DNA of 21,377 bases, from IMG/VR virus record IMGVR_UViG_3300025879_000132, positions 1-21,377 of that record. One strand, 5' to 3'. A model generated the notes under the pieces. It had not been told where the DNA came from, did no database searches, and worked only from the letters and a program-made list of their open reading frames with translations. The translations under genes were made by a program, and so were the position numbers. Below, in pieces: positions 1 through 13,909 of this stretch. The stretch's first letter is position 1, and each line of letters opens with the position of its first letter. This DNA comes from a virus.

Positions 1-600
1 GTACATTTACTGGTAATGGTAGTGGACTTACAAATGTAGATGCCGCAACACTAGATGGTATTGATAGTGTAAACTTCTTACGTAGTAATGTTGCAGATAC
101 AATGACAGGCTTACTAACAATGTCACACGCTGGTGACGAAATGATTCGTTTGCAAGATACAAGTGCTACTGGTAATCCGTATATTAGTTGGTATCAATCA
201 ACTACAAGACGTGCTTATATGCAGTATAGAGACGGCGATGATAGTCTGTACATTAAAAACGAAGGTGCTAATACTGCACTTGAGATTGATAACGGAACCA
301 GCGGATTAATATTCCAAGACGGTTCTACCAACTATACTGTATGGCACAGTGGCAACGACGGTTCTGGTAGTGGACTAGATGCTGATACACTTGATAGTCT
401 AAGCAGTGGAAGTTTCTTACGTAGTGATGCAAATGATGCATTTAGTGGAACACTAAGTGGTGCTGGTAGTATTAACATTACAGGAAACATTACTGCTAAC
501 GCATTTACAGGTAACGGTAGTGGTCTAACAGGTGTTACAGCTGATAATGCTAACACACTAGATAACTTGGATAGTACAGATTTCTTACGTAATAGTGCAA
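1..600 (+). repeat. Internal repeats in fibre shaft coding sequence
   Basis: Three imperfect copies, around 48-88, 383-426 and 553-596, share a stretch coding for LD-x-(I/L)-x-S and a TTCTTACGTA core. A linked TGGTAGTGG/TGNGSGLT element occurs near 12-32 and 509-530. They encode fibre shaft modules and could be sites of recombination between fibre genes. Confidence 0.7.
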
Positions 601-1250
601 CAGCACAAACTTCCAATATGTTCATTAGAAACGGTTCGCCAACAGTGTATTTGCGTGATACTGATCATAGAAGTAGTATGATTCACTGTAACAGTAACAT
701 TTGGTACGTACTACGTGGTAGCGGAAATGACAGTACAAGTTGGGCACAAGTTGACAGTCGTTGGCCATTAGAAATCAACCTCACTAATAACAATATAACC
801 ACAGGTGGTAGTATCAATGCACGTACTGAGATCACTGCTTACGGTTCAGATGAAAGACTAAAAGAAAACATCAAACCAATTGAAAACGCACTAGATAAAG
901 TTAAATCACTAGACGGTGTAACATATGATTGGATGGACAAAGTTGAAGAAGTAGGCTTCTTCCCAGAGCGCAGAAAAAATGAAGCAGGGGTTATTGCACA
1001 GCAGGTACAGAAAGTACTACCACAAGCTGTTGCACCAGCACCGTTTGATAGAGACTGGGTCAAAGACGAAACTGGTGGTGCTACAAGCGAATCTTATAGT
1101 GTTAGTGGCGAAGAATACTTAACAGTTAAGTATGAAAAACTAGCTCCGTTGTTTATTGAAGCAATCAAAGAACAGGATGCTAAACTAGAAGCACAAGCAG
1201 CAGAGATTGCAGAACTACGTACAATGGTACAAAAACTACTAGATAAATAA
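1..1250 (+). CDS. Tail fibre protein with C-terminal S74 chaperone domain (5' partial)
   Basis: The frame is open from base 3, so the N-terminus lies outside the window; 415 codons remain. The first 200 residues carry spaced repeats of the type LD-x-(I/L)-x-S-x-x-FLR(S/N) and TGNGSGLT, typical of marine phage fibre shafts. The C-terminus from about residue 282 matches the peptidase S74 intramolecular chaperone: SDERLKENI (probable catalytic Ser282 and Lys287), then GVIAQQVQKVLPQAV, then LTVKYEKLAPLFIEAIKEQ, and a final coiled-coil tail. In this family the domain trimerises the fibre and then cleaves itself off N-terminal to the Ser. The fibre presumably acts in host recognition at the virion surface. 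The last codons (GAT AAA TAA) also form a late-promoter-like box. Family assignment of the domain is firm; which fibre this is in T4 terms is unknown. Confidence 0.9.
   Translation, partial: TFTGNGSGLTNVDAATLDGIDSVNFLRSNVADTMTGLLTMSHAGDEMIRLQDTSATGNPYISWYQSTTRRAYMQYRDGDDSLYIKNEGANTALEIDNGTSGLIFQDGSTNYTVWHSGNDGSGSGLDADTLDSLSSGSFLRSDANDAFSGTLSGAGSINITGNITANAFTGNGSGLTGVTADNANTLDNLDSTDFLRNSATAQTSNMFIRNGSPTVYLRDTDHRSSMIHCNSNIWYVLRGSGNDSTSWAQVDSRWPLEINLTNNNITTGGSINARTEITAYGSDERLKENIKPIENALDKVKSLDGVTYDWMDKVEEVGFFPERRKNEAGVIAQQVQKVLPQAVAPAPFDRDWVKDETGGATSESYSVSGEEYLTVKYEKLAPLFIEAIKEQDAKLEAQAAEIAELRTMVQKLLDK
1242..1249 (+). promoter_or_regulatory. Late-promoter-like box GATAAATA overlapping fibre stop codon
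   Basis: GATAAATA matches the T4 late -10 class (TATAAATA) and contains the start of the fibre gene's TAA stop. A strong hairpin follows 8 bp later, so a transcript begun here would meet it at once. Function is uncertain. Confidence 0.35.
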
Positions 1251-1524: not shown

Positions 1525-1902
1525 ATGAAAACATTATACGAAGTATTAAATGTAGACCTTGCACAAGAGTATACTAAAGAACGTAAAAAAGAAGTAGCAA
1601 CATCACTTAACCTTAATGGCGATCTTCACGAAGACGTTTTTGCAGCTATTGACGATATGATTATTCCAAACGACGATGATAGACTCCACTGGATTCAAAA
1701 ATTTGGAAGAGCTGCGGGCGCCGACTTACTTACACTAGGTAAAGTACAACCCGAAAGCATGATAGCTATGGCTTGTTTGCCAGCAGAAGATTTTAAAGAA
1801 GCTGTTAAGATTGCAACAAGTGCTGCAAGAACTTGGAACGACTATACTGTACAAGCTGAAAAAGATTTAAACGAAGAAACTATGCCATCAACAATGTTGT
1901 AA
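1525..1902 (+). CDS. Hypothetical protein, 125 aa
   Basis: I do not recognise this family. The product is soluble, acidic and mostly helical in appearance, with no signal peptide or membrane segment. It begins MKTLYEVLNVDLAQEYTKER and ends in an acidic DLNEETMPSTML tail. AAGGAAAC precedes the ATG at usual SD distance. It sits between the 58-aa protein and the glycosyltransferase, with 11 nt and 1 nt spacing, so it is very probably co-transcribed and translationally coupled with them. Codon use and base composition look like the neighbours. A role linked to the glycosyltransferase pair is only inference from position. Confidence 0.75.
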   Translation: MKTLYEVLNVDLAQEYTKERKKEVATSLNLNGDLHEDVFAAIDDMIIPNDDDRLHWIQKFGRAAGADLLTLGKVQPESMIAMACLPAEDFKEAVKIATSAARTWNDYTVQAEKDLNEETMPSTML

Positions 1903-1903
1903 T

Positions 1904-2488
1904 ATGAAACTAAGTATTTGTGTTCCTGCACGTGATCAAGTCCATACAGGATTTACACGCAGTCTCTGTAATCTAACAAATAGATTAACAAAACAAAATG
2001 TTGACTTTAATCTACATATTGTTTGCGGCAGCGTGATTATTGAAAGTCGAACTGCACTAGTAAAGGAAGCATTAGAAAATAATGCAACACATACTTTGTG
2101 GCTTGACAGTGATATGCATTTTCCAGCAAACGTATTTGATAAACTACATGAACATCAAAAAGATATTGTTGCAGCACAATACAGTACACGATATGCTCCG
2201 TATCGTACTGTAGCATTTACTGATTGTGAAAATGCAGACAACAGACTAGATGCTAGTTTTGGATTGCACAAGGTATGGGCAGTTGGCATGGGATGTATGT
2301 TGGTTAATACAGATGTGTACAACAACTTGCCTAAGCCGTGGTTTGATCACGAATACAATAAACGACTAGACACTTTCAGCGGAGAAGATATATACTTTTG
2401 TAACCAAGCAATGCATCACGGTTATGAAGTATGGATAGACGCAAGTATCGAACTTGCACATTTTGGAACAAAGGCAAATATACTATGA
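1904..2488 (+). CDS. GT-A fold glycosyltransferase (family 2-like)
   Basis: The 194-aa protein has the marks of a compact GT-A sugar transferase. It opens with a beta strand KLSICVPARDQ, has ESRTALVKEAL near residue 47, a metal/nucleotide-sugar motif WLDSDM (Asp68-x-Asp70), a GED motif at 160-162 (usual catalytic base region) and a late His186 in AHFG, a common metal ligand. The Q-Y-S-T-R region after the DxD resembles phage homologues. It should transfer a sugar from a nucleotide donor; the acceptor cannot be read from the sequence and could be phage DNA, a virion protein or host surface glycan. Its ATG lies 1 nt after the preceding stop and its TGA overlaps the next ATG (ATGA), so it is coupled to the large repeat protein. 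Confidence 0.85.
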   Translation: MKLSICVPARDQVHTGFTRSLCNLTNRLTKQNVDFNLHIVCGSVIIESRTALVKEALENNATHTLWLDSDMHFPANVFDKLHEHQKDIVAAQYSTRYAPYRTVAFTDCENADNRLDASFGLHKVWAVGMGCMLVNTDVYNNLPKPWFDHEYNKRLDTFSGEDIYFCNQAMHHGYEVWIDASIELAHFGTKANIL

Positions 2489-5115
2489 GAGCTATTGATA
2501 GATTTGAAAAATTTGGAACGCCAGTGCATAACGGACAAGATTTTTTAAAGAATCATATTTTTCAAAAATACCCAGTTGTAAAAACAGACGACTACGAAAA
2601 CTTAGAACAAGTTTGGAAATCAGATTATGATTCTGATTACGTATGGGTTGTTGATAGTAATATCGAAACATATAGTACCTTTCCTTGGTTTTTTAAACCA
2701 AAAGCAGATGAAGAAGTTTGCATACATGCTTTTCCTTATGTATTTGAAAAAAGTCGTAAAGTTAAAGATTGGAACAGAGTTCGATTAGTTCCAACTAAAA
2801 AAGGCGAATATAATGTAAATCAACACGCTTATATTTGTGGACATTATGATCCTTACAAAGGCAAAGACAAGTTTGATATTTTTTATATTGGAAAAGATAC
2901 AAAGGTATTAAAAAATCTTGAGACTAGAGGGTTTGATGTACAGGTAGTAGATTCTTTAAACACTGCTAAACAAAATAGTTTTACTGATATGTTTTGGATA
3001 GTGTATGATGATACTGAAGTAAGAGATACATTTAAATTCAGCTACAAGCCAGACGAATGGAGTTTTAATATTCCTCATGTGTTTGGCAATGGCGATATAG
3101 ACACACTAGATGGTATTGTACTTTGCCCTAAGTCATGTGAGCTAACTGATAAAGAAATCAAACATAGATTTTTTGTTAACAAAAAAGAAGTAAGAATATT
3201 AGCAAGTAATCCAAGACATTATGATAGATATGTTATCAACAACTATCAAGATTACGAATATGCAGCTGAACTTTCAACAACTGATATGTTCTGGGGATAT
3301 TCAGATAATATTGTTATCGACGAAAAGTTCAAGTTTGATTATTATATTAGTCATCATAGCAGTGAAAAAAAATCAAATCACGCTTGGCTAAATGGAAACA
3401 AATACGATGGTGTATTTTTGTTTAGTAAACAAGCATTAGTAAGCAAAGAAGAAATAGAACACAAAGAACTAAAACAAAAGATCGATCACAATGTTGTAGC
3501 AAGTGGTCCAAAAGATTATGAAAAGTTTATAGTTGAAAACTACGAACAATACAAAAGTGCATTTCATAGTTGCGGAAGTGATATGATGTGGCTTATTCCA
3601 AATGACGTAGATCCTTTGAGCGATTTTGAATGGGATGGTTATTTCCACAATCAAGATTCGTTTGATCGTTCAACCAATCACGTATTTTTAAATGGGGTTG
3701 ATTACGATGGTATTGCATTATTAAATACTATAGATCTTATATCTGAAAAAGAGTTTGACCATAGATTCTATGTTAATAAAAAAGAACATAATGTTGTAGC
3801 AAGTAATCCAAAAAAATATAAAAAGTTTACAATAAACAACTATGATGATTATGCAAATGCATTATATAACTCCGACACTGAAATGTTTTGGGGTGTGCCT
3901 ACTGATGTTGATGTAGACAAAGACTTTGATTTTAGTTTATACTTTAGTCATCAGAATACATTTGATAGAAATATCAACCATGTGTTTTTAAATGGCGATA
4001 GCTATGATGGTATTGTATTATATAGTAAAAACGTATTGGTAAGTGAAAAAGAAATAGAACATCGTTTTCTTATAAAAAAGAAAGAATACGAGATTGTAGC
4101 AAGTACTCCAAAACAATATCCAACATATACTGTAAATGATTATCAAGATTATTTAGAAGCAAAAGAAAACTGTAATACAGATATGTTTTGGATTGTAAAC
4201 AATTCATTTTTACCTAATGAAGATTTCAACTGGAATTTTTATATTAGTCATCACAATCAATACGAAAGAAAAATAAATCATGTTTGGAAGAATGGCGACT
4301 TTTATGACGGCATTGCATTGGTTAGTAAACAACTAAACATCAGTCAACGAGAGATAGATTATAGATTTTTTGTTACTAAAAAAGAATATGATGAAGTTGG
4401 TAGTATGCCAAAGCCTTATGATATTGTGTTTATTAGTAATGGCGAACCAAATGCTGATGATAACTATTATGAACTAAAAGAAAAGTATCCAAGAGCAAAA
4501 CGAGTAATGGATATCAAAGGAATACATGCAGCTCATAAACGTGCTGCTGAGTTAGTTGAAACAGAAATGTTTTGGGTTGTTGACGGCGATGCTGAAATTA
4601 TAGATGATTTTGAATTTGATTATTATGTGCCTGCATACGACATTGACGGCAAAGATACTGTGCATGTATGGAGAAGTCATAACCCAGTAAATGGACTGGT
4701 GTATGGATATGGCGGTGTTAAACTTTTGCCTACTCGATTAACAAGAAATCTTGATGAAACAACAACCGATATGACCACTAGTATTAGTGACAAGTTTAAA
4801 GGTGTAGACAAAATGAGTAATACCACTGCATTTAATACTGATGCATTTAGTGCATGGCGTAGTGGATTTAGAGAATGTTGTAAACTTGCTAGTCGCACTA
4901 TTGCTCGTCAGAAAGATGACGAAACTGATTTTAGATTAGATGCATGGTGCTCAAGAGGTGACGACAAACCCTTTGGAAAAGCAGCCATTGCTGGAGCAAT
5001 AGCAGGTAAAGCATTTGGCGAAATGAATGCAGACAATCCAAACGAACTAGTAAAAATCAATGATTTTGAATGGCTTAAGAATCAGTTTGAGATATTATAT
5101 CTACCAACCGTATAA
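2485..5115 (+). CDS. Tandem-repeat glycosyltransferase-like protein, 876 aa
   Basis: I start it at ATG 2485, which overlaps the preceding TGA in ATGA; an upstream in-frame ATG at 2431 lies deep inside the glycosyltransferase gene and is less likely. Seven copies of a D-(M/Y)-(F/V)-W-x-V motif begin at residues 51, 168, 267, 366, 466, 566 and 694, with spacings 117, 99, 99, 100, 100 and 128 aa. Each is followed by an acidic DF-x-F-x-Y segment, an H-(V/A)-(F/W)-x-NG-x-YDGI segment, EI-x-HRFF and VAS-x-P. Only the last unit keeps a full VVDGDAEI motif plus VHVWRSHNPVNGL and YGYGGVKLLP, as in marine phage glycosyltransferase-like proteins. A C-terminal domain (about 760-876) has ETTTDMTTSIS, WRSGFRECCKLASR and RLDAWC. 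Inference: one possibly active terminal unit with degenerate binding-type copies. No membrane segments. Confidence 0.8.
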   Translation: MRAIDRFEKFGTPVHNGQDFLKNHIFQKYPVVKTDDYENLEQVWKSDYDSDYVWVVDSNIETYSTFPWFFKPKADEEVCIHAFPYVFEKSRKVKDWNRVRLVPTKKGEYNVNQHAYICGHYDPYKGKDKFDIFYIGKDTKVLKNLETRGFDVQVVDSLNTAKQNSFTDMFWIVYDDTEVRDTFKFSYKPDEWSFNIPHVFGNGDIDTLDGIVLCPKSCELTDKEIKHRFFVNKKEVRILASNPRHYDRYVINNYQDYEYAAELSTTDMFWGYSDNIVIDEKFKFDYYISHHSSEKKSNHAWLNGNKYDGVFLFSKQALVSKEEIEHKELKQKIDHNVVASGPKDYEKFIVENYEQYKSAFHSCGSDMMWLIPNDVDPLSDFEWDGYFHNQDSFDRSTNHVFLNGVDYDGIALLNTIDLISEKEFDHRFYVNKKEHNVVASNPKKYKKFTINNYDDYANALYNSDTEMFWGVPTDVDVDKDFDFSLYFSHQNTFDRNINHVFLNGDSYDGIVLYSKNVLVSEKEIEHRFLIKKKEYEIVASTPKQYPTYTVNDYQDYLEAKENCNTDMFWIVNNSFLPNEDFNWNFYISHHNQYERKINHVWKNGDFYDGIALVSKQLNISQREIDYRFFVTKKEYDEVGSMPKPYDIVFISNGEPNADDNYYELKEKYPRAKRVMDIKGIHAAHKRAAELVETEMFWVVDGDAEIIDDFEFDYYVPAYDIDGKDTVHVWRSHNPVNGLVYGYGGVKLLPTRLTRNLDETTTDMTTSISDKFKGVDKMSNTTAFNTDAFSAWRSGFRECCKLASRTIARQKDDETDFRLDAWCSRGDDKPFGKAAIAGAIAGKAFGEMNADNPNELVKINDFEWLKNQFEILYLPTV
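2635..4580 (+). repeat. Tandem ~300-bp coding repeats
   Basis: Repeat starts, set on the GAT/GAA codon before ATGTTTTGG-like DNA, fall at 2635, 2986, 3283, 3580, 3880, 4180 and 4564. Four consecutive spacings are 297, 297, 300 and 300 bp. Similarity is visible in the DNA too, for example GTTGTAGCAAGT at about 3492 and 3792, so some duplications look fairly recent. Confidence 0.85.
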
Positions 5116-5521
5116 CTGTATCAAGTTTCTTTTGATTGGTTTTACTTCGCAGTGTATTACTCAATCCGTGATGTAAAGGTTTTGGCCACTTTCCAAATGT
5201 TACCCAAGCATACCCATCGTGCTCATTATTTAACTCTGGAATAAATTCATTATCAACTACACAAAGATATGTATGAAAACTAAAATGATTATCACTGCTT
5301 ATAAATGTTTCTAAAGGTATTGTTTTTTTAATACCAGAAAGATTGCCTATTTCTTCAGTTATTTCTCGTTGCAAACCTTCCCACGGTGTTTCAATACCTT
5401 CGTTTGTTCCGCCAACTAATCCCCAAAGGTTTTTTGTTTTTCCTTTAGTACGATGTAAAAATAAAAATCTTTTAGTTTTGAGACTATAAAATAAAGCACC
5501 ACTACAAATTATTTTGTTCAT
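5075..5521 (-). CDS. Nudix hydrolase, 148 aa
   Basis: The Nudix box is complete at residues 38-60 of the chosen start: G-x5-E-x7-REITEEIG, with metal-binding Glu53, Glu56 and Glu57. Members hydrolyse nucleoside diphosphates linked to another moiety (oxidised dNTPs, ADP-sugars, capped RNA or similar); substrate cannot be told here. I chose ATG 5521 (MNKIICSGALFYS) because it begins right at the first strand of the fold and 13 nt after the gp15 stop; a longer frame to 5584 would overlap gp15. It is the last gene of the minus-strand 14-15 unit. Its 3' end overlaps the converging repeat-protein gene by 41 bp. No good SD is visible upstream. Confidence 0.9.
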   Translation of the reverse strand: MNKIICSGALFYSLKTKRFLFLHRTKGKTKNLWGLVGGTNEGIETPWEGLQREITEEIGNLSGIKKTIPLETFISSDNHFSFHTYLCVVDNEFIPELNNEHDGYAWVTFGKWPKPLHHGLSNTLRSKTNQKKLDTVIRLVDIISQTDS

Positions 5522-5534
5522 ACAAGTACTTATT

Positions 5535-7238
5535 TTATAATATAATAGTCCAGGTTCCTCGTGGATAATATCCGTCGACTGCACTTTGCCAATAATATCC
5601 GTTCCAATAAAACTGTTGTCCAGTAGTTACGTTAGTAACGTATGTAGTTTCATTGTCATTGCTAGAGTTCCAAATATTAACCCATTTAGATCCATCCCAT
5701 TCGACTATATCATTTGCATCAGCTGAAAAATCTGTATTGTCTGCATTTTTCCAAGCCTCTGGTCCTTTTTCGTTTAGATTAAGTACATAAGATACAGTGT
5801 CGTCTACACTGTATGCTGTAGTTAGATTTATAACAAACTTATCGTCAATATTTGATTTTGTTGCTGCTACCGGTGTTCCGTTTACAAACACTTCAAAGCT
5901 GGTAACACGTTCGTCTCCGGCTCTACCGGCTAACTCGCTAGTAGTAATAATAAAATCTATATCGGTATCTATTCTATTACTACTAGTAGTAGCTTTAAAA
6001 CTACGTTCGACTTTATAACCTATTGGCCCTAACAATAATAATCTAACACCAGGTGTTTTTACTGTTTGAGGATTAAAACTTATAGGATCGATGATGTAAT
6101 CAATAGTTCCATCAGTCTTAGTTGGCCCTGTTATAATAGTGTTAGCTGGCAATGTATCCTCGTCCCAATCAATGATCATTGTATGATTATCATTGCTTGG
6201 AATATTAAATGTACCAATAATTTCGCCACTTAACTCTGCTCGACGTAATCTTATTTGACTTATGTTGGGTTGATATTTTGCTGGCAGTTCTGCCTCAATG
6301 ATATTAAGCCAACTAATATCGCCTACTCGAAGTTTTTTATTTTTAGCTAGTTTGGCTTCATCGTCGTTGATTATAACGTCAAAATCTCTGTAACTTGTAA
6401 CTATCGGATTGCTTAAATCTAAACCTGTGTTACTTACACTGGAAGTACTAGTAATACCAACATTTCCTAAATTAACAACAGTACCGTCTGGTAACACAGT
6501 AACTCCGCTTGCAGCACCTTGATCTGATGTAGTTGGTGGATTAAACCCTTCAAGGCTTATTGTTCCTGCGTCTTGACTATAAACACCAGTAATAATATCT
6601 GTTATAATGCCCAACTTTTTAACTTTGCTCGGAGGCGAAATGTATATTGGTGCTGTAAATCCTAATGTAGCAACATCTATATCATCTTGTGTTCCTACAG
6701 GAATAGTTCTACTACTAAAGTTAATATCTTCTAAATATAATGCACTTAAACTAGTCCAATCTACATAGTTGTCAGATGTTTGAAATTCTAAGTCTGGATT
6801 AAACAACATAAAGATTTGTTCAAGTATTTGTAGTTTTTGATCAGTACTAGTTGACCATACATCAACATTAACACTTAAAGTATACGGAGTTGGGTGTAAT
6901 CTCTCAACTGTATATCCTTTGGCTTGTTGTGCTACGTAACTACTAGTGTTTTCATCAAATGCTTTTTCTCTAAGATTGATTTTACTAACATAACTACTAT
7001 CACTTAGACGTGATCTATCCATTTGCAAACTAGTAACATATACGCCCATTCGAGGAGCACTTGGTAATTTGTTATCACTATTTTCTCTAATAATACTGCC
7101 AACTTGTCTCGTAATATCTCCATATAATACAGGAACTACTTTAATATCGCCATCTCCATCGCGATAGCTAAAGTTACTAAATGCTCTTACTATTTGAGTA
7201 ATATATCTACGTATTTGTCCATCATAAAAGTATTGCAT
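5535..7238 (-). CDS. gp15: Tail sheath stabiliser and completion protein gp15-like
   Basis: The N-terminal 230 residues follow the T4 gp15 pattern: F-Y-x4-RRY near the start, an FSNF-x10-K-VPV-YGD strand, a P-x-PYTLSVNVDVW segment followed by QILEQIFMLFNPDLEF, and an A-x-LGFTAPIYISPP end of the core. In T4 gp15 caps the tail tube and sheath and joins the tail to the neck. At 567 aa it is about twice T4 gp15 (272 aa). The C-terminal half is an extra Thr/Asp-rich region ending in aromatic repeats (VEWDGSKWVNIW, FYWNGYYWQS). The ATG overlaps the gp14 stop in TAATG, with AGGTGA as SD inside gene 14, so the two are translationally coupled. Assignment rests on remembered family pattern, not a search. 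Confidence 0.82.
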   Translation of the reverse strand: MQYFYDGQIRRYITQIVRAFSNFSYRDGDGDIKVVPVLYGDITRQVGSIIRENSDNKLPSAPRMGVYVTSLQMDRSRLSDSSYVSKINLREKAFDENTSSYVAQQAKGYTVERLHPTPYTLSVNVDVWSTSTDQKLQILEQIFMLFNPDLEFQTSDNYVDWTSLSALYLEDINFSSRTIPVGTQDDIDVATLGFTAPIYISPPSKVKKLGIITDIITGVYSQDAGTISLEGFNPPTTSDQGAASGVTVLPDGTVVNLGNVGITSTSSVSNTGLDLSNPIVTSYRDFDVIINDDEAKLAKNKKLRVGDISWLNIIEAELPAKYQPNISQIRLRRAELSGEIIGTFNIPSNDNHTMIIDWDEDTLPANTIITGPTKTDGTIDYIIDPISFNPQTVKTPGVRLLLLGPIGYKVERSFKATTSSNRIDTDIDFIITTSELAGRAGDERVTSFEVFVNGTPVAATKSNIDDKFVINLTTAYSVDDTVSYVLNLNEKGPEAWKNADNTDFSADANDIVEWDGSKWVNIWNSSNDNETTYVTNVTTGQQFYWNGYYWQSAVDGYYPRGTWTIIL

Positions 7239-8428: not shown

Positions 8429-9187
8429 ATGGCCGAACTTACAACACAGAAACAAGAAGTATTTGATTACGTAAATGCCTTTCTAGGCGGAGGAATGGTA
8501 GATGTAGAACTAGATCCTATACACTACGAAACTGCACTAGGAAAAGCAACTGCACGATATAGACAACGTAGTGAAAACAGCGTTGAAGAAAGTTATATTA
8601 CTCTTGCACTAACCGAAGATGTAAATGCATATACATTACCTAATGAAATAATCGAAGTGCGTAAAGTTCATAGACGTAGTGTAGGAAGTAGATTAGGCGG
8701 CAACAGTGGCGGCACAACATTTGAACCATTTAACCTTGCATATACAAATACATATCTATTAGCAGGAAGCGGTATCGGCGGCCTCGCTACGTATGATTTC
8801 TTTGCTCAACAACAAGAACTAGTAGGAAGAATGTTTGGTAGTTTTATCGAATTTGTTTGGAACACTAGTACAAAAAAGCTAACTATATTAACAAGACCAA
8901 GAGCCGAGGAAGAAGTATTGTTATATTGCTATAATCATAGACCTGACTTTGAGTTGTACAAAGACTACAAAGCATTTCAATGGATTAAGGAATATACTCT
9001 TGCTAACTGTAAATATATGTTAGGTGAAGCACGTAGTAAGTTTGCTACTATTGCCGGACCAGGCGGCGGTACTACACTCAACGGTGATTCGCTTAAAGCC
9101 GAAGCTCAACAGGAAATGGAAAAACTTGACAACGACCTAGCTATGTCTGTTGCAGGTGGTGTTGGCTACGGTTTTTTAATTGGATAA
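8429..9187 (+). CDS. gp13: Neck protein gp13-like
   Basis: At 252 aa it matches the T4-like gp13 family. The N-terminal GGGMVDVELDPIHYETALGKATARY corresponds to the T4 G-x-P-x-(I/V)-NVEL-x-P-x-Q-x-x-x-x-x-A-x-x-x-Y segment. The C-terminus has WIKEYTLANCKYMLGEARSK, PGGGTTLNGDSL, EAQQEMEKL and a closing G-x-GFLIG, as in T4 gp13 (PGG-x-TIDGQRL, EEARLEKEAL, FGILVG). gp13 builds the neck with gp14 and completes the DNA-filled head. GGAGA lies at usual distance before the ATG. It faces away from gp14 across 36 bp, an arrangement different from T4 where 13, 14 and 15 run together. The stop codon lies inside the next gene's start region. Confidence 0.85.
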   Translation: MAELTTQKQEVFDYVNAFLGGGMVDVELDPIHYETALGKATARYRQRSENSVEESYITLALTEDVNAYTLPNEIIEVRKVHRRSVGSRLGGNSGGTTFEPFNLAYTNTYLLAGSGIGGLATYDFFAQQQELVGRMFGSFIEFVWNTSTKKLTILTRPRAEEEVLLYCYNHRPDFELYKDYKAFQWIKEYTLANCKYMLGEARSKFATIAGPGGGTTLNGDSLKAEAQQEMEKLDNDLAMSVAGGVGYGFLIG

Positions 9188-10007
9188 TAGATTTAATAAT
9201 ATCAAAAAAGTAATAGCAGGCGGCTGTAGTTTTACAGCAGGATCAGAGCTGGCTGACGAGTCTTGGGATCGTAATCATAAAGGAATATGCTACGAGATAA
9301 GTTATACAGCATGGCCAAACTTGCTTCAACAAAAAATGTTTACTAATGCAACAGTTGATAATACTGCTGTACCAGGCGCAGATTATGGAAGTATAGTTAG
9401 ACGTATAATATACCAAACTAGGCACAATCTAAGGATACACAAGCCAGAAGATATTGTTGTAGTTGTAATGTGGACAAGTATTTTACGTAGAGAATATCCT
9501 AGTATATATCCTGTAGACAGAAAAATAAAAACTCACGAAGATAGATTTTTAACTTCATTGCCATCAGACGGCGATGGCAAAACTAAAGGTTATTCAAATG
9601 AGATGTTATACAGAAGAAGACAAATGTGGGCATCGGAACATCTAACACGAACAAATGTAGAGTTTTATGCTAGGCGTGACACACACGATAATCATGTATA
9701 TTATCCACTACAGCAACTAGAATATTTAACAAGCTGGCTTGAAAATAATAATATTAAGTATTTTTATACATCTGCGTTTAAAGATATTGAACCAGAGTTA
9801 TTGAATCAAGACAATGTGTTTTTACAAGACATGGTTGCAAGATTAAATCTTCCTAATCTTGTACATAAGGAAGACGGCATTGGATTTTGGGATTGGGCAA
9901 CAAAAAACAAATACGAATGTGGAAAAGAATCAGATCATCCTCTTGAACAAGCACACATTGATTGGACAGATCTTTTTGCAAAATGGATATTGACAAAATC
10001 TAAATAA
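9180..10007 (+). CDS. SGNH/GDSL-like hydrolase, 275 aa
   Basis: Block I is IAGGCSFTAG with probable nucleophile Ser17; block II is NTAVPGADYGSIVRR; VVVMWTS fits the block III strand; and the last block is ESDHPLEQAHIDW with probable catalytic His253. Family members cleave ester bonds in lipids or sugar acetyl groups; in phages they can deacetylate host surface glycans. The start is TTG 9180: a TAA stop lies directly upstream in frame, and the first in-frame ATG is beyond the Ser motif. It overlaps the gp13 3' end by 8 nt, so translation is probably coupled to gp13. The catalytic block has Glu250/Asp252 rather than a plain DxxHP, so activity is not certain. Its last codons hold a promoter. Confidence 0.75.
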   Translation: MDNRFNNIKKVIAGGCSFTAGSELADESWDRNHKGICYEISYTAWPNLLQQKMFTNATVDNTAVPGADYGSIVRRIIYQTRHNLRIHKPEDIVVVVMWTSILRREYPSIYPVDRKIKTHEDRFLTSLPSDGDGKTKGYSNEMLYRRRQMWASEHLTRTNVEFYARRDTHDNHVYYPLQQLEYLTSWLENNNIKYFYTSAFKDIEPELLNQDNVFLQDMVARLNLPNLVHKEDGIGFWDWATKNKYECGKESDHPLEQAHIDWTDLFAKWILTKSK

Positions 10008-10024: not shown

Positions 10025-10525
10025 ATGAAAAAGAAGTTATTAGTAATAGGTCATGGCAGACATGGCAAAGATACTGTATGTGAAATCCTGCGTGACGAAT
10101 ACGGATATACATTTGAAAGCAGCAGTAAGTTCTGCTCAAAGTTGTTTATCTATGATGACTTAAAGGAAAAATATGGATATGCTGATGAAGAAGAGTGTTA
10201 TGCTGACAGGCATAATCACAGAGCAGAATGGTATAATGCTATCTGCGATTATAATGTTCCTGATGCAGCGACTCTAGGTAGAGAGATGTTTGCAGCCTAT
10301 GACATCTATTGTGGGCTACGCAACAAGCGTGAATTCTTTGCAATGCAAAACACTGGAGTTTTTGATTATTGTATCTGGGTTGATCGCAGCAAATATCTCA
10401 TGCCCGAGTCAAAAGATTCGATGAGCCTAGAACAATGGATGGCAGATTACACCATTGACAACAACGGAACGTTGGATGATCTTTGGTTTAATATTAGACA
10501 GCTAATGAGTTATATACATACTTAA
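10025..10525 (+). CDS. P-loop (deoxy)nucleoside monophosphate kinase-like protein
   Basis: The 166-aa protein starts with a strand KKKLLVIGHGRHGKDT whose G9-x4-GKDT17 is a Walker A of the NMP kinase/dephospho-CoA kinase type, where Asp replaces the usual Ser/Thr after Lys as in T4 gp1. Length suits the dNMP kinase class (T4 gp1 is 241 aa, so this is shorter). CIWVDRS near residue 119 resembles the Walker B/lid strand and TIDNNGTLDDL near the end matches the DN-x-G-x-x-x-x-L finish seen in these kinases. It probably phosphorylates a nucleotide for phage DNA synthesis. The promoter at 9990-10018 directly upstream sets it apart from the late structural genes around it. Substrate is not readable. 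Confidence 0.75.
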   Translation: MKKKLLVIGHGRHGKDTVCEILRDEYGYTFESSSKFCSKLFIYDDLKEKYGYADEEECYADRHNHRAEWYNAICDYNVPDAATLGREMFAAYDIYCGLRNKREFFAMQNTGVFDYCIWVDRSKYLMPESKDSMSLEQWMADYTIDNNGTLDDLWFNIRQLMSYIHT

Positions 10526-10600: not shown

Positions 10601-13600
10601 ATGGCATTAACTTCACCAGGTGTAGAGGTCAGCGTTATTGATGAGAGTTTTTATACTCCAGCAGAACCAGGCACAGTACCTATAATATTTGTCGCAACAG
10701 GCGAAAATAAACTAAACGGCGCAGGAACTGGTGTTGCACCAGGAACTCAAAAAGCCAATGCAGGTAAACCATACCTACTAACATCGCAGCGAGATCTAGT
10801 AGACACATTTGGCGATCCTACATTTTATACAGATGCTAACAACAATCCTATTCATGGCGGCGAACAAAATGAATACGGACTACAGGCAGCATATTCATAT
10901 TTAGGCGTAAGCAACAGAGCGTATGTAGTAAGAGCAGACCTTGATCTTACAGCAATATCTGCTAGTGCAACGCCAACAACTGCAAACCCAACAGACGGAA
11001 CATATTGGTTAGATACTCAAGTAACAAAGTTTGGTATCTTTGAATGGAACGGCAGTGCCGAATCAGCAACCAACAAAGTTGGTCAAACATTTACTAACAA
11101 AACACCAACTGTTATTACTGATGCAACACAAACAACAAATTCACCTCCTTATGCTCCAAAACAATCAGTAGGCGCTATTGGTGATTATGCAGTTGTAGCA
11201 GTTTCAACTATTATACGCACATGGTATAAAAATACTTCGGGTACTTGGGTACAAGTTGGTAGTGCAGATTGGAAAGGCAGTTGGCCTTCAGTAACAGGTA
11301 CAGCAGCTACTCCAACATTTATAGCAAGTGATACTATTACTATTGGATCTGCAGAAGGTCTTAGTGTAACAGTTACACTTTCGGGCACTAGTCTTGCTTT
11401 AGCAGTAAGTGATATTAACACAGCATTAGGTCCTGTTGGAATCACAGCAGAGGCAGTTGATAATAGATTGGTATTTAAAAATACTGGCGCAACACATTCA
11501 AACATTGTTCTTGGACAAGGAACAGGAACACCATTAACTGCTGCAGGTATTGCTGCTGGCACATATTATCCACCAGCACATCAAGCATCTGCTCACACAA
11601 GCGTTCCAGAATGGAAAACAGCAGATTTAGCAACCAAACGTCCAACAGGAAGTGTATGGGTTAAAACAACTACACCAAACAGTGGTGCAGATTGGAAAAC
11701 AAAAGTATGGAACGGTTCAACTGAACTATGGGATGCAGTAAGCACACCGATTTATACTTCAAACTCAGCAGCATTGCTTGGCCTAGATAAAACAGGTGGC
11801 GGAGCCAATCTAACATCGCTTAATGTTTATGCAATGGCAAATGTTACAGAATCAGCAACAAACTTAGCCAACTTTACTTTGTACAAGCGTAATGCTAATG
11901 GCGCAACAACTATTACTAGTTCGGTTGTTACTGGCTCACCATCTTCAACATTTACAGTAGGTGCTAATGATTTTACTATTAGTGAAACAGTAAAAGGAAT
12001 TCCAGGATTAAGTACACCAGTAACTATTTCATTTAGTGCAACAGGTGCTACAACTGATGCAGATTTAATGGCAGCAGCTATTAATACAGCAGGTTTAACT
12101 AATGTTACTGCTAGTGTCGATTCAAGCAATAGAGTTGTAATAACACATGCAATAGGCGGAGACATTAGATTTGTAGATGGTGCAAACACACCATTAGTTG
12201 ACGCATTTACTGCTTGGAACTACTCAACAAAATCAGGAACTGTAAACTTTTATGATTCACCAAATGGGTTGTCAGGTGCATATATTGCAACACTTTGGAA
12301 AGAACTAACTTATACAGCAAGTAACAATGCACCAACTGCTCTTGCAGCAGACGGCGCTCTATGGTATAGCAGTGTTGTTGACGAAGTTGATATCATGGTA
12401 CATGATGGAAGCAAGTGGGTTGGATACTTGAATAGTGATTCGCCATATTATGATGTTACACCTGCAAACGCACCAGATCCAGCAGGACCGATTGTTGCTG
12501 CAACTGAGCCAGTTAATGGTGATCGTTCAGATGGCGGAGATCTAGTAACAGGTGATATTTGGATTAGTACAGCAGATCTTGAAAACTTCCCAAGAATCTA
12601 TCGCTGGAACAATACACTAAACAGTTGGGTTGAACTAGATACAACCGACCAAACAACTGAAAACGGTGTACTATTTGCAGATGCACGTTATAACACAGCA
12701 GGCGCAAACAGTGGCACAGCAGGAACTATTGCTAATATGATTGTTAGTAACTATGTTGATGCAGATTGTCCAGATCCAGCACTATATCCAAAAGGAATGA
12801 TACTATGGAACTTACGTAGAAGCGGATTTAACGTCAAGCGTTTTGAACGTAACTATGTAGACTTGGCAGCAGTCAATGAACGTTTTGGTGACCAGTCAAT
12901 GTCAGCATATTATCCGCATCGTTGGGTTACTGAATCAGCTAATGAAGCAGATGGCTCAGGTAGTTTTGGACGTAAGGCACAGCGTAAAGTTGTAGTACAA
13001 AAACTACAAGCAATGCTAAACGAAAACCAAGACATTCGCGACAACGAATCACGTATCTTTAACTTGATGGCAACACCAGGTTATCCAGAGCTAATCGGAG
13101 AAATGATTACACTAAACTATGACAGAGGCTTAACAGCATTTGTTATTGGTGATTCACCATTCCGTTTAACACCAGATGCAACTTCGCTTAACGAATGGGC
13201 AACCAACGTTAACACAGTTGTTGAAGATAACGATGACGGACTTGTAAGTAGAGATGAGTACATGGGTGTTTATTATCCAAGTGGCTTTACTAGTGACAAT
13301 GCAGGCAACAATGTAGTTGTTCCGCCAAGTCATATGGTACTACGTACTTTCGCACTAAATGACCAAGTTGCGTATCCATGGTTTGCACCAGCAGGTACAA
13401 GACGAGGTGGAGTTACAAATGCAACTTCAACAGGTTACATCAACGGCGAAGGCGAGTTTGTTGCAGCAGCACTAAACGAAGGTCAAAGAGATACATTGTA
13501 TCAAAACAACGTTAACCCTATTACATTCTTAACAGGTGCAGGGCTAGTTGTATTTGGACAAAAAACTCGTGCAAGAAATGCAAGTGCTCTTGATAGAGTT

Positions 13601-13909
13601 AACGTTGCAAGACTTGTAGTATACTTACGTAGTCAGCTGAATCAGTTAACAAAACCATATCTATTTGAACCAAATGATAAAATCACACGTGATGAAATCA
13701 GAGCACAAGTAGAAAGTTTAATGGTTGAACTAGTGGGACTAAGAGCTCTATATGACTTCTTAGTTGTGTGTGACGAATCAAACAACACACCAGCGAGAAT
13801 TGATCGAAATGAACTATATGTAGATATTGCTATTGAACCAGTCAAAGCAGTTGAGTTTATTTACATTCCATTGCGTATCAAAAACACAGGAGAAATCGCA
13901 GGGTTATAA
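10601..13909 (+). CDS. gp18: Tail sheath protein gp18-like, enlarged (1102 aa)
   Basis: The N-terminal domain (MALTSPGVEVSVIDES, LTSQRDLVDTFGDPTF, LGVSNRAYVVRAD) and the C-terminal domain from about residue 736 (NLRRSGFNVKRF to FIYIPLRIKNTGEIAGL) are those of contractile sheath proteins. gp18 polymerises round the tail tube and contracts at infection. T4 gp18 has 659 aa; here roughly 125-700 is expanded. The insert holds two segments resembling the flagellin-hook IN motif (about 241-317 and 448-524: a beta pair, a helix with A-x-x-IN, then a V-x-A-x-x-x-x-R-(L/V)-V strand) and several aromatic modules such as YWLDTQ/FEWNG, VWNGSTELW and IYRWNNTLNSW. These probably form surface domains on the sheath. 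Strong SD and own late promoter; a hairpin follows. Confidence 0.9.
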   Translation: MALTSPGVEVSVIDESFYTPAEPGTVPIIFVATGENKLNGAGTGVAPGTQKANAGKPYLLTSQRDLVDTFGDPTFYTDANNNPIHGGEQNEYGLQAAYSYLGVSNRAYVVRADLDLTAISASATPTTANPTDGTYWLDTQVTKFGIFEWNGSAESATNKVGQTFTNKTPTVITDATQTTNSPPYAPKQSVGAIGDYAVVAVSTIIRTWYKNTSGTWVQVGSADWKGSWPSVTGTAATPTFIASDTITIGSAEGLSVTVTLSGTSLALAVSDINTALGPVGITAEAVDNRLVFKNTGATHSNIVLGQGTGTPLTAAGIAAGTYYPPAHQASAHTSVPEWKTADLATKRPTGSVWVKTTTPNSGADWKTKVWNGSTELWDAVSTPIYTSNSAALLGLDKTGGGANLTSLNVYAMANVTESATNLANFTLYKRNANGATTITSSVVTGSPSSTFTVGANDFTISETVKGIPGLSTPVTISFSATGATTDADLMAAAINTAGLTNVTASVDSSNRVVITHAIGGDIRFVDGANTPLVDAFTAWNYSTKSGTVNFYDSPNGLSGAYIATLWKELTYTASNNAPTALAADGALWYSSVVDEVDIMVHDGSKWVGYLNSDSPYYDVTPANAPDPAGPIVAATEPVNGDRSDGGDLVTGDIWISTADLENFPRIYRWNNTLNSWVELDTTDQTTENGVLFADARYNTAGANSGTAGTIANMIVSNYVDADCPDPALYPKGMILWNLRRSGFNVKRFERNYVDLAAVNERFGDQSMSAYYPHRWVTESANEADGSGSFGRKAQRKVVVQKLQAMLNENQDIRDNESRIFNLMATPGYPELIGEMITLNYDRGLTAFVIGDSPFRLTPDATSLNEWATNVNTVVEDNDDGLVSRDEYMGVYYPSGFTSDNAGNNVVVPPSHMVLRTFALNDQVAYPWFAPAGTRRGGVTNATSTGYINGEGEFVAAALNEGQRDTLYQNNVNPITFLTGAGLVVFGQKTRARNASALDRVNVARLVVYLRSQLNQLTKPYLFEPNDKITRDEIRAQVESLMVELVGLRALYDFLVVCDESNNTPARIDRNELYVDIAIEPVKAVEFIYIPLRIKNTGEIAGL

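Follow-up and report, generated by a model that had tools for sequence, protein, structure and literature searches.

A phage gene in which a conserved GT-A glycosyltransferase domain follows a tandem array of its degenerate copies

Introduction

GT-A enzymes and multi-domain glycosyltransferases are already known. Both domains of the chondroitin polymerase K4CP are enzymes. The polypeptide GalNAc-transferases of family GT27 and OGT carry a catalytic domain and a separate acceptor-binding part, which is a lectin domain or a TPR superhelix.

The K4CP structure 2z87 is the prototype of the GT-A core as defined in PMC7185993. For phages, PMC7029224 places a ‘host recognition cluster’ of pelagimyophages between VrlC and gp14, containing tail fibres, glycosyltransferases and radical SAM cassettes. 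Glycosylation of the virion has been reported for mycobacteriophages, as cited in PMC12619734. Here, an array gene from an uncultured T4-like phage is compared with these systems.

Results

Locus and domain layout

The window, i.e. the whole stretch of DNA analysed, is a virus record of 21,377 bases with T4-type structural genes (fibre end, gp15-type stabiliser, sheath and large terminase). The nearest annotated relatives of its terminase are found in jumbo phages such as PA5oct, at approximately 54% identity. The array gene is placed between the giant tail-fibre gene and the neck genes (Table 1), and the order fibre, 125-aa protein, GT-A-like 194-aa protein, array protein, Nudix hydrolase and gp15 is conserved in the lineage. 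An earlier note, made from the letters of the sequence, had described the gene as lying next to a fibre gene and coupled to a compact GT-A enzyme. Both observations hold: the end of an S74 tail fibre lies upstream, and the stop codon of the compact gene overlaps the start codon of the array gene (ATGA). Matches to the compact protein were present in 147 phage records. The array locus matches the pelagimyophage ‘host recognition cluster’.

The open reading frame could extend upstream to position 2431 (ORF 2431-5115). The ATG at 2485 is the likely start because of the ATGA overlap and because several homologues have a stop codon between the positions equivalent to 2431 and 2485. Seven homologous domains were recognized in the protein: a divergent N-terminal unit, five units of about 100 aa and a C-terminal domain of about 230 aa.

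Table 1. Features of the array gene and its neighbours (positions in the window)
Feature	Position	Strand	Evidence
C-terminal end of giant tail fibre with Peptidase_S74 chaperone	3..1250	+	PF13884, E 8.8e-20
125-aa protein of unknown function	1525..1902	+	phrog_1409; position conserved
Compact GT-A-like protein, 194 aa	1904..2488	+	PHROG glycosyltransferase families; Pfam Anp1 just under cut-off
Multi-unit GT-A protein, 876 aa	2485..5115	+	ATG 2485; AF2 pLDDT 84.2
Divergent N-terminal unit (aa 1-118)	2485..2838	+	VVDSN at DxD position; 28.5 bits with iterated family HMM
Unit 1 (aa 119-237)	2839..3195	+	VYDD at DxD position; HMMs, AF2 model
Unit 2 (aa 238-336)	3196..3492	+	YSDN at DxD position; HMMs, AF2 model
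Unit 3 (aa 337-435)	3493..3789	+	IPND; iterated HMM, AF2; C-domain-only HMM weak (3.1 bits)
Unit 4 (aa 436-535)	3790..4089	+	VPTD at DxD position; HMMs, AF2 model
Unit 5 (aa 536-642)	4090..4410	+	VNNS; single-unit model, Foldseek top matches are GT-A enzymes
C-terminal catalytic-type GT-A domain (aa 643-876)	4411..5112	+	Foldseek GT-A; invariant motifs
DGD, the DxD motif (D700, D702)	4582..4590	+	Invariant in 232/232 C-type domains
YGYGGVK (aa 740-746), probable G-loop	4702..4722	+	Conservation; GT-A core definition in PMC7185993
WRSGFRE (aa 791-797)	4855..4875	+	R796 and E797 invariant
Nudix hydrolase, conserved downstream neighbour	5075..5584	-	PF00293; synteny
gp15-type tail sheath stabiliser	5535..7238	-	PF16724

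Several other features of the structural region were recorded. The tail-fibre open frame reaches 3,637 aa in near relatives of the window. S74 fibre frames uncut by contig ends measured 3,185-3,796 aa at loci with seven to nine domains and only 587 and 642 aa at a locus with two domains (L062), which is a small sample. The tail sheath protein of the window (10601-13909) is 1,102 aa long, and the Pfam sheath C-terminal domain is limited to residues 995-1093, which implies large insertions. A gene resembling DUF6071 and GDSL-like hydrolases (9180-10007) is located among the neck and sheath genes.

Origin of the units

In the longer ORF, a T/S-D/E-M-F/M-W motif recurs at residues 185, 284, 383, 483, 583 and 711. 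Successive copies are 99, 99, 100, 100 and 128 aa apart, and the first four of these spacings are exactly those listed in the earlier note. Its count of about seven units was also right, with the divergent N-terminal unit, recognized by the iterated family HMM, as the seventh. This HMM scored the seven domains in order at 28.5, 64, 84, 80, 101, 94 and 389 bits. Since it contains unit sequences, the independent test consists of two other HMMs, each compared with shuffled sequences. The single-domain HMM, built exclusively from free-standing single-domain relatives without any repeat protein, gave 16.1, 14.8, 9.8 and 3.6 bits for units 1, 2, 4 and 5; the best of 200 shuffles reached 4.7 bits, so that unit 5 was not above chance with this model. 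With the HMM built from C-terminal domains only, the same four units scored 12.4-22.7 bits against a shuffle maximum of 5.9, and unit 3 (3.1 bits) and the N-terminal unit (-0.2 bits) did not exceed the shuffles.

Chance periodicity was ruled out by the HMM scores against the 200 shuffles, and an assembly artefact by the fact that dozens of contigs, from many samples, carry the same array. Repeats unrelated to GT-A were ruled out by the HMM scores together with the single-unit model and Foldseek matches described below. It is thus practically certain that the units descend from a GT-A domain.

Predicted fold

The AlphaFold2 model of the full-length protein (pLDDT 84.2) has a C-terminal domain with a GT-A fold whose N-terminal part is Rossmann-like, in agreement with the Foldseek matches. 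For the full model, Foldseek ranked 15 GT-A glycosyltransferases first in the PDB, each with an E-value below 0.001; K4CP (2z87, E 8.7e-6) was the best match, and SunS/ThuS, RmlT and PcManGT were among the others. A profile made from the alignment gave only chance-level matches to PDB sequences.

A single unit modelled alone (110 aligned units; unit 5 as window 4102-4419) reached a pLDDT of 94.6 and a pTM of 0.86. Its best PDB matches were beta-1,4-galactosyltransferases and other GT-A enzymes, each of them individually weak (best E 0.024, TM about 0.4). The unit aligns with approximately residues 18-118 of the 224-position C-domain profile, and is devoid of the helix and strand that follow the first strand of the C-terminal domain and of the C-terminal helices. 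Each unit is a trimmed copy of the C-terminal GT-A domain, and the GT-A relationship of the repeat fold put forward in the earlier note is borne out by structure prediction. In BFVD, the best matches of the single unit were A0A6J5LK21 (804 aa) and A0A6J5L5L5 (1076 aa), with a probability of 1.00 and a TM of 0.62-0.64. These are uncharacterised proteins of uncultured Caudovirales phages, likened by structure alone, and possibly arrays too.

Catalytic motifs in the last copy and in the units

A set of C-type domains was assembled from 71 C-terminal domains of array proteins, 79 other viral domains and 82 bacterial domains. All 232 contain DxD. Every viral domain (150/150) and nearly all bacterial ones (80/82) combine it with N92, YxxG and K102, a combination seen in none of the units. 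DxD was found in 0/258 internal units and kept in 7/73 first units. In the window protein it is confined to the C-terminal domain as DGD, with VDSN, VYDD, YSDN, IPND, VPTD and VNNS in the units; only the last copy keeps the catalytic motif, as had been noticed earlier.

YGxGG is nearly invariant after DxD and was taken as the G-loop by its order along the chain, not by superposition. The search patterns themselves account for part of the conservation near YGxGG and WRxGFRE, whereas neither set of patterns contains DxD. At the xED position the C-type domains have an invariant F-R-E (profile E153) and no ED, so that xED is unrecognisable; this motif varies in several GT-A families (PMC7185993). 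C-His is absent, with no conserved histidine in the C-terminal half of the C-type domains (maximum 27%). This is not decisive against GT-A, since C-His was lost independently in several GT-A families (PMC7185993). With xED unrecognisable and C-His absent, the catalysis may be of an unusual kind.

The donor-site residues E10, H40, D56, D58, N92, YGxGG and K102 are systematically lost from the units, which argues against donor binding in the ancestral mode. The earlier view of the units as degenerate modules for binding sugars or nucleotides is thus unsupported as it was stated. A new binding surface on the units is possible. They have a signature of near-invariant residues of their own (Y17, A20, F29, W30, H60, G70, L73, E84 and R88), and F, W, Y and H make up 18-22% of the units versus 14% of the C-terminal domain.

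Relatives and genomic contexts

At least 596 stretches of the family were found in IMG/VR and 88 in GTDB genomes; among the ‘bacterial’ loci that come from MAGs, some could be contigs of phages. In family-library searches with the multi-unit protein, the domain fell into no Pfam, NCBIfam or PHROG family, and no match exceeded the curated cut-off of PF00535 (GT2) or PF03452 (Anp1). When 50,697 phage records were searched by tblastn, neither the whole protein nor the C-terminal domain nor a single-domain relative found a match. The terminase query matched 2,652 records, which shows that this collection can be searched, though records near the window may be left out of it.

In a second genomic context the array protein usually follows an overlapping paralogue of about 300 aa (L127, L129, L130, L138, L150, L153 and others). 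Radical SAM/SPASM genes are often adjacent, with matches to the radical SAM family in 21 of the 73 scanned neighbours; this proximity could point to a different acceptor in the second context.

Single-copy relatives are present in both phages and bacteria, confirming that the periodicity is the result of domain duplication, as the earlier note had supposed. The single-domain family is common in Streptomyces and related actinobacteria (L199-L253), where it has no Pfam or NCBIfam family. A Micromonospora homologue reaches 22.3 bits with Glycos_transf_2 (PF00535), just below the cut-off of 23.3. In Micromonospora (L205), GT4- and GT2-type genes come after the family member, and a kinase-like gene of the AAA_33 type is also nearby. 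The Dyadobacter homologue is fused to a GT2-type domain and lies beside a GT4-type gene. Many members of the family have no array but look intact, so that the arm of units is not needed for the core reaction.

Selection and copy number

All units are under purifying selection, with a dN/dS of 0.02-0.12 in close pairs. The N-terminal unit evolves faster in distant pairs (dN/dS up to 0.48, with dS near saturation). Among phage relatives, the number of domains per protein varies from 1 to 11. The syntenic locus carries proteins of two (L062, 374 aa), five (657-680 aa), seven (870-904 aa), nine (1,127 aa), ten (1,196 aa) and eleven (1,300 aa) domains, and the second context has one to eight. A seemingly one-domain form at the syntenic locus (L030) was rejected as a frame break.

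L059 and L051 differ by an exact indel of one unit of 104 aa between flanks that are 93-94% identical, by sequence comparison a recent gain or loss of a unit. Lineage-specific unit copies were observed in L059, L128 and L153. In nine phages with seven domains, units -1 to -4 group by position (FastTree supports 0.86-0.94), two of the four groups containing one extra member; the seven-domain array is thus an old and stable one.

Other variants were also encountered. An internal deletion of 69 aa in the array of L056:4992-8372 has left a partial unit (profile positions 24-56) with the frame open. The array of L137 is divided over two overlapping frames (1410-2708 and 2686-3663), either a split gene or a sequencing frameshift. 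In L122:1285-4632 a seven-domain array is followed by an extra C-terminal part of about 230 aa. This part contains a domain resembling SCP2 sterol-transfer domains (PF02036, E 1.1e-8), possibly a hint that the substrate of this variant is lipid-linked.

Discussion

The reading we favour, at about even odds, is that the gene product is an active GT-A glycosyltransferase whose arm, made of six dead, shortened copies, holds or positions the acceptor, within a cluster for host recognition or virion glycosylation. Its parts differ in strength. Judging by its motifs, the C-terminal domain of about 230 aa is probably a transferase, which would transfer a sugar from a nucleotide-sugar donor. The six units would make up a solenoid-like arm for gripping or positioning an acceptor that is long or repetitive, the reach or avidity of the arm being tuned by the gain or loss of units. 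This role of the arm as an acceptor-binding or positioning scaffold, for which the chances seem evenly balanced, is suggested by the selection on the units, their copy-number dynamics and the analogy with transferases carrying accessory binding parts. The likeliest acceptor would be the neighbouring fibre or another virion surface protein, with a host surface glycan as the second choice; the virion or fibre is proposed tentatively, from the position of the gene. A bolder and rather unlikely version makes the pseudo-GT-A units a modular acceptor reader, each binding one repeat of a long fibre or glycan. If true, the unit number, changed by recombination, sets the reach or the spacing of the sugars added by the C-terminal enzyme, a molecular ruler made from the enzyme's own dead copies.

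The main rival is that the protein modifies the host surface, altering LPS/O-chain or capsule and blocking superinfection while the arm binds the host polysaccharide. Such a role has been proposed for glycosyltransferases of the equivalent pelagimyophage island (PMC7029224), and sugar-nucleotide biosynthesis genes occur near some relatives as single cases. We consider it possible at a clearly lower probability, as the loci read showed no membrane or polyprenyl-linked context and the gene keeps its place next to the fibre gene and the small GT-A-like gene in the lineage of the window. The adjoining giant S74 fibre can also be read differently, with the array as a virion-displayed, lectin-like receptor-binding component and the C-terminal domain as a vestige, in line with the variable copy number and the F, W, Y and H content of the units. 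This is improbable given that the C-terminal domain keeps every catalytic-type motif across phages and bacteria, and that free-standing single-domain relatives exist, which in bacteria adjoin other glycosyltransferase genes.

An expansion that is neutral or purely structural, in which the units are spacers without a binding role, is equally improbable. The unit number is readily changed and the near-invariant unit residues look largely structural, but the strong purifying selection and the stable positional orthology across divergent seven-domain phages argue against it. Phage glycosyltransferases often act on DNA, and a dNMP-kinase-like gene is present at 10025-10525; yet hypermodification of the phage DNA by this transferase is very unlikely in view of its conserved place in the fibre and neck region, the failure to find a base-modifying gene beside the array gene and the single-domain homologues in Streptomyces and other bacteria, which are unlikely to be phage-DNA enzymes.

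A large GT-A family without a matching Pfam, NCBIfam or PHROG entry has been brought to light, and with it a natural series of 1 to 11 domains in which pseudo-enzyme copies are attached to a conserved enzyme. The conversion of dead enzyme domains into scaffolds thereby becomes a testable question, as does the possible glycosylation of their own fibres by T4-like phages of aquatic habitats.

In comparison with known systems, the pelagimyophage cluster is likewise an island that holds genes for tail fibres, glycosyltransferases and radical SAM proteins and extends to the neck protein gp14; the available text of PMC7029224 stresses GT8-type enzymes and describes no tandem pseudo-GT arrays, and no description of such arrays in phages was found in the open-licence literature. 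Relative to the papers and libraries searched, a conserved GT-A domain that carries a tandem array of degenerate GT-A modules in variable number appears to be new. It suggests an arm of adjustable length, of a kind not described before, on a phage glycosylation enzyme. K4CP (GT2-like, 2z86/2z87) has the same predicted fold and also two GT-A domains per chain, and the window protein has DxD and a G-loop-like motif as in GT2-like GT-A enzymes. Unlike in K4CP, six of its seven domains have lost their motifs, C-His is absent and xED is unrecognisable. By analogy, the arm may work like the GT27 lectin domain or the TPR superhelix of OGT; in those enzymes the accessory part is unrelated to the catalytic domain, whereas in the array protein it is made of copies of the catalytic domain.
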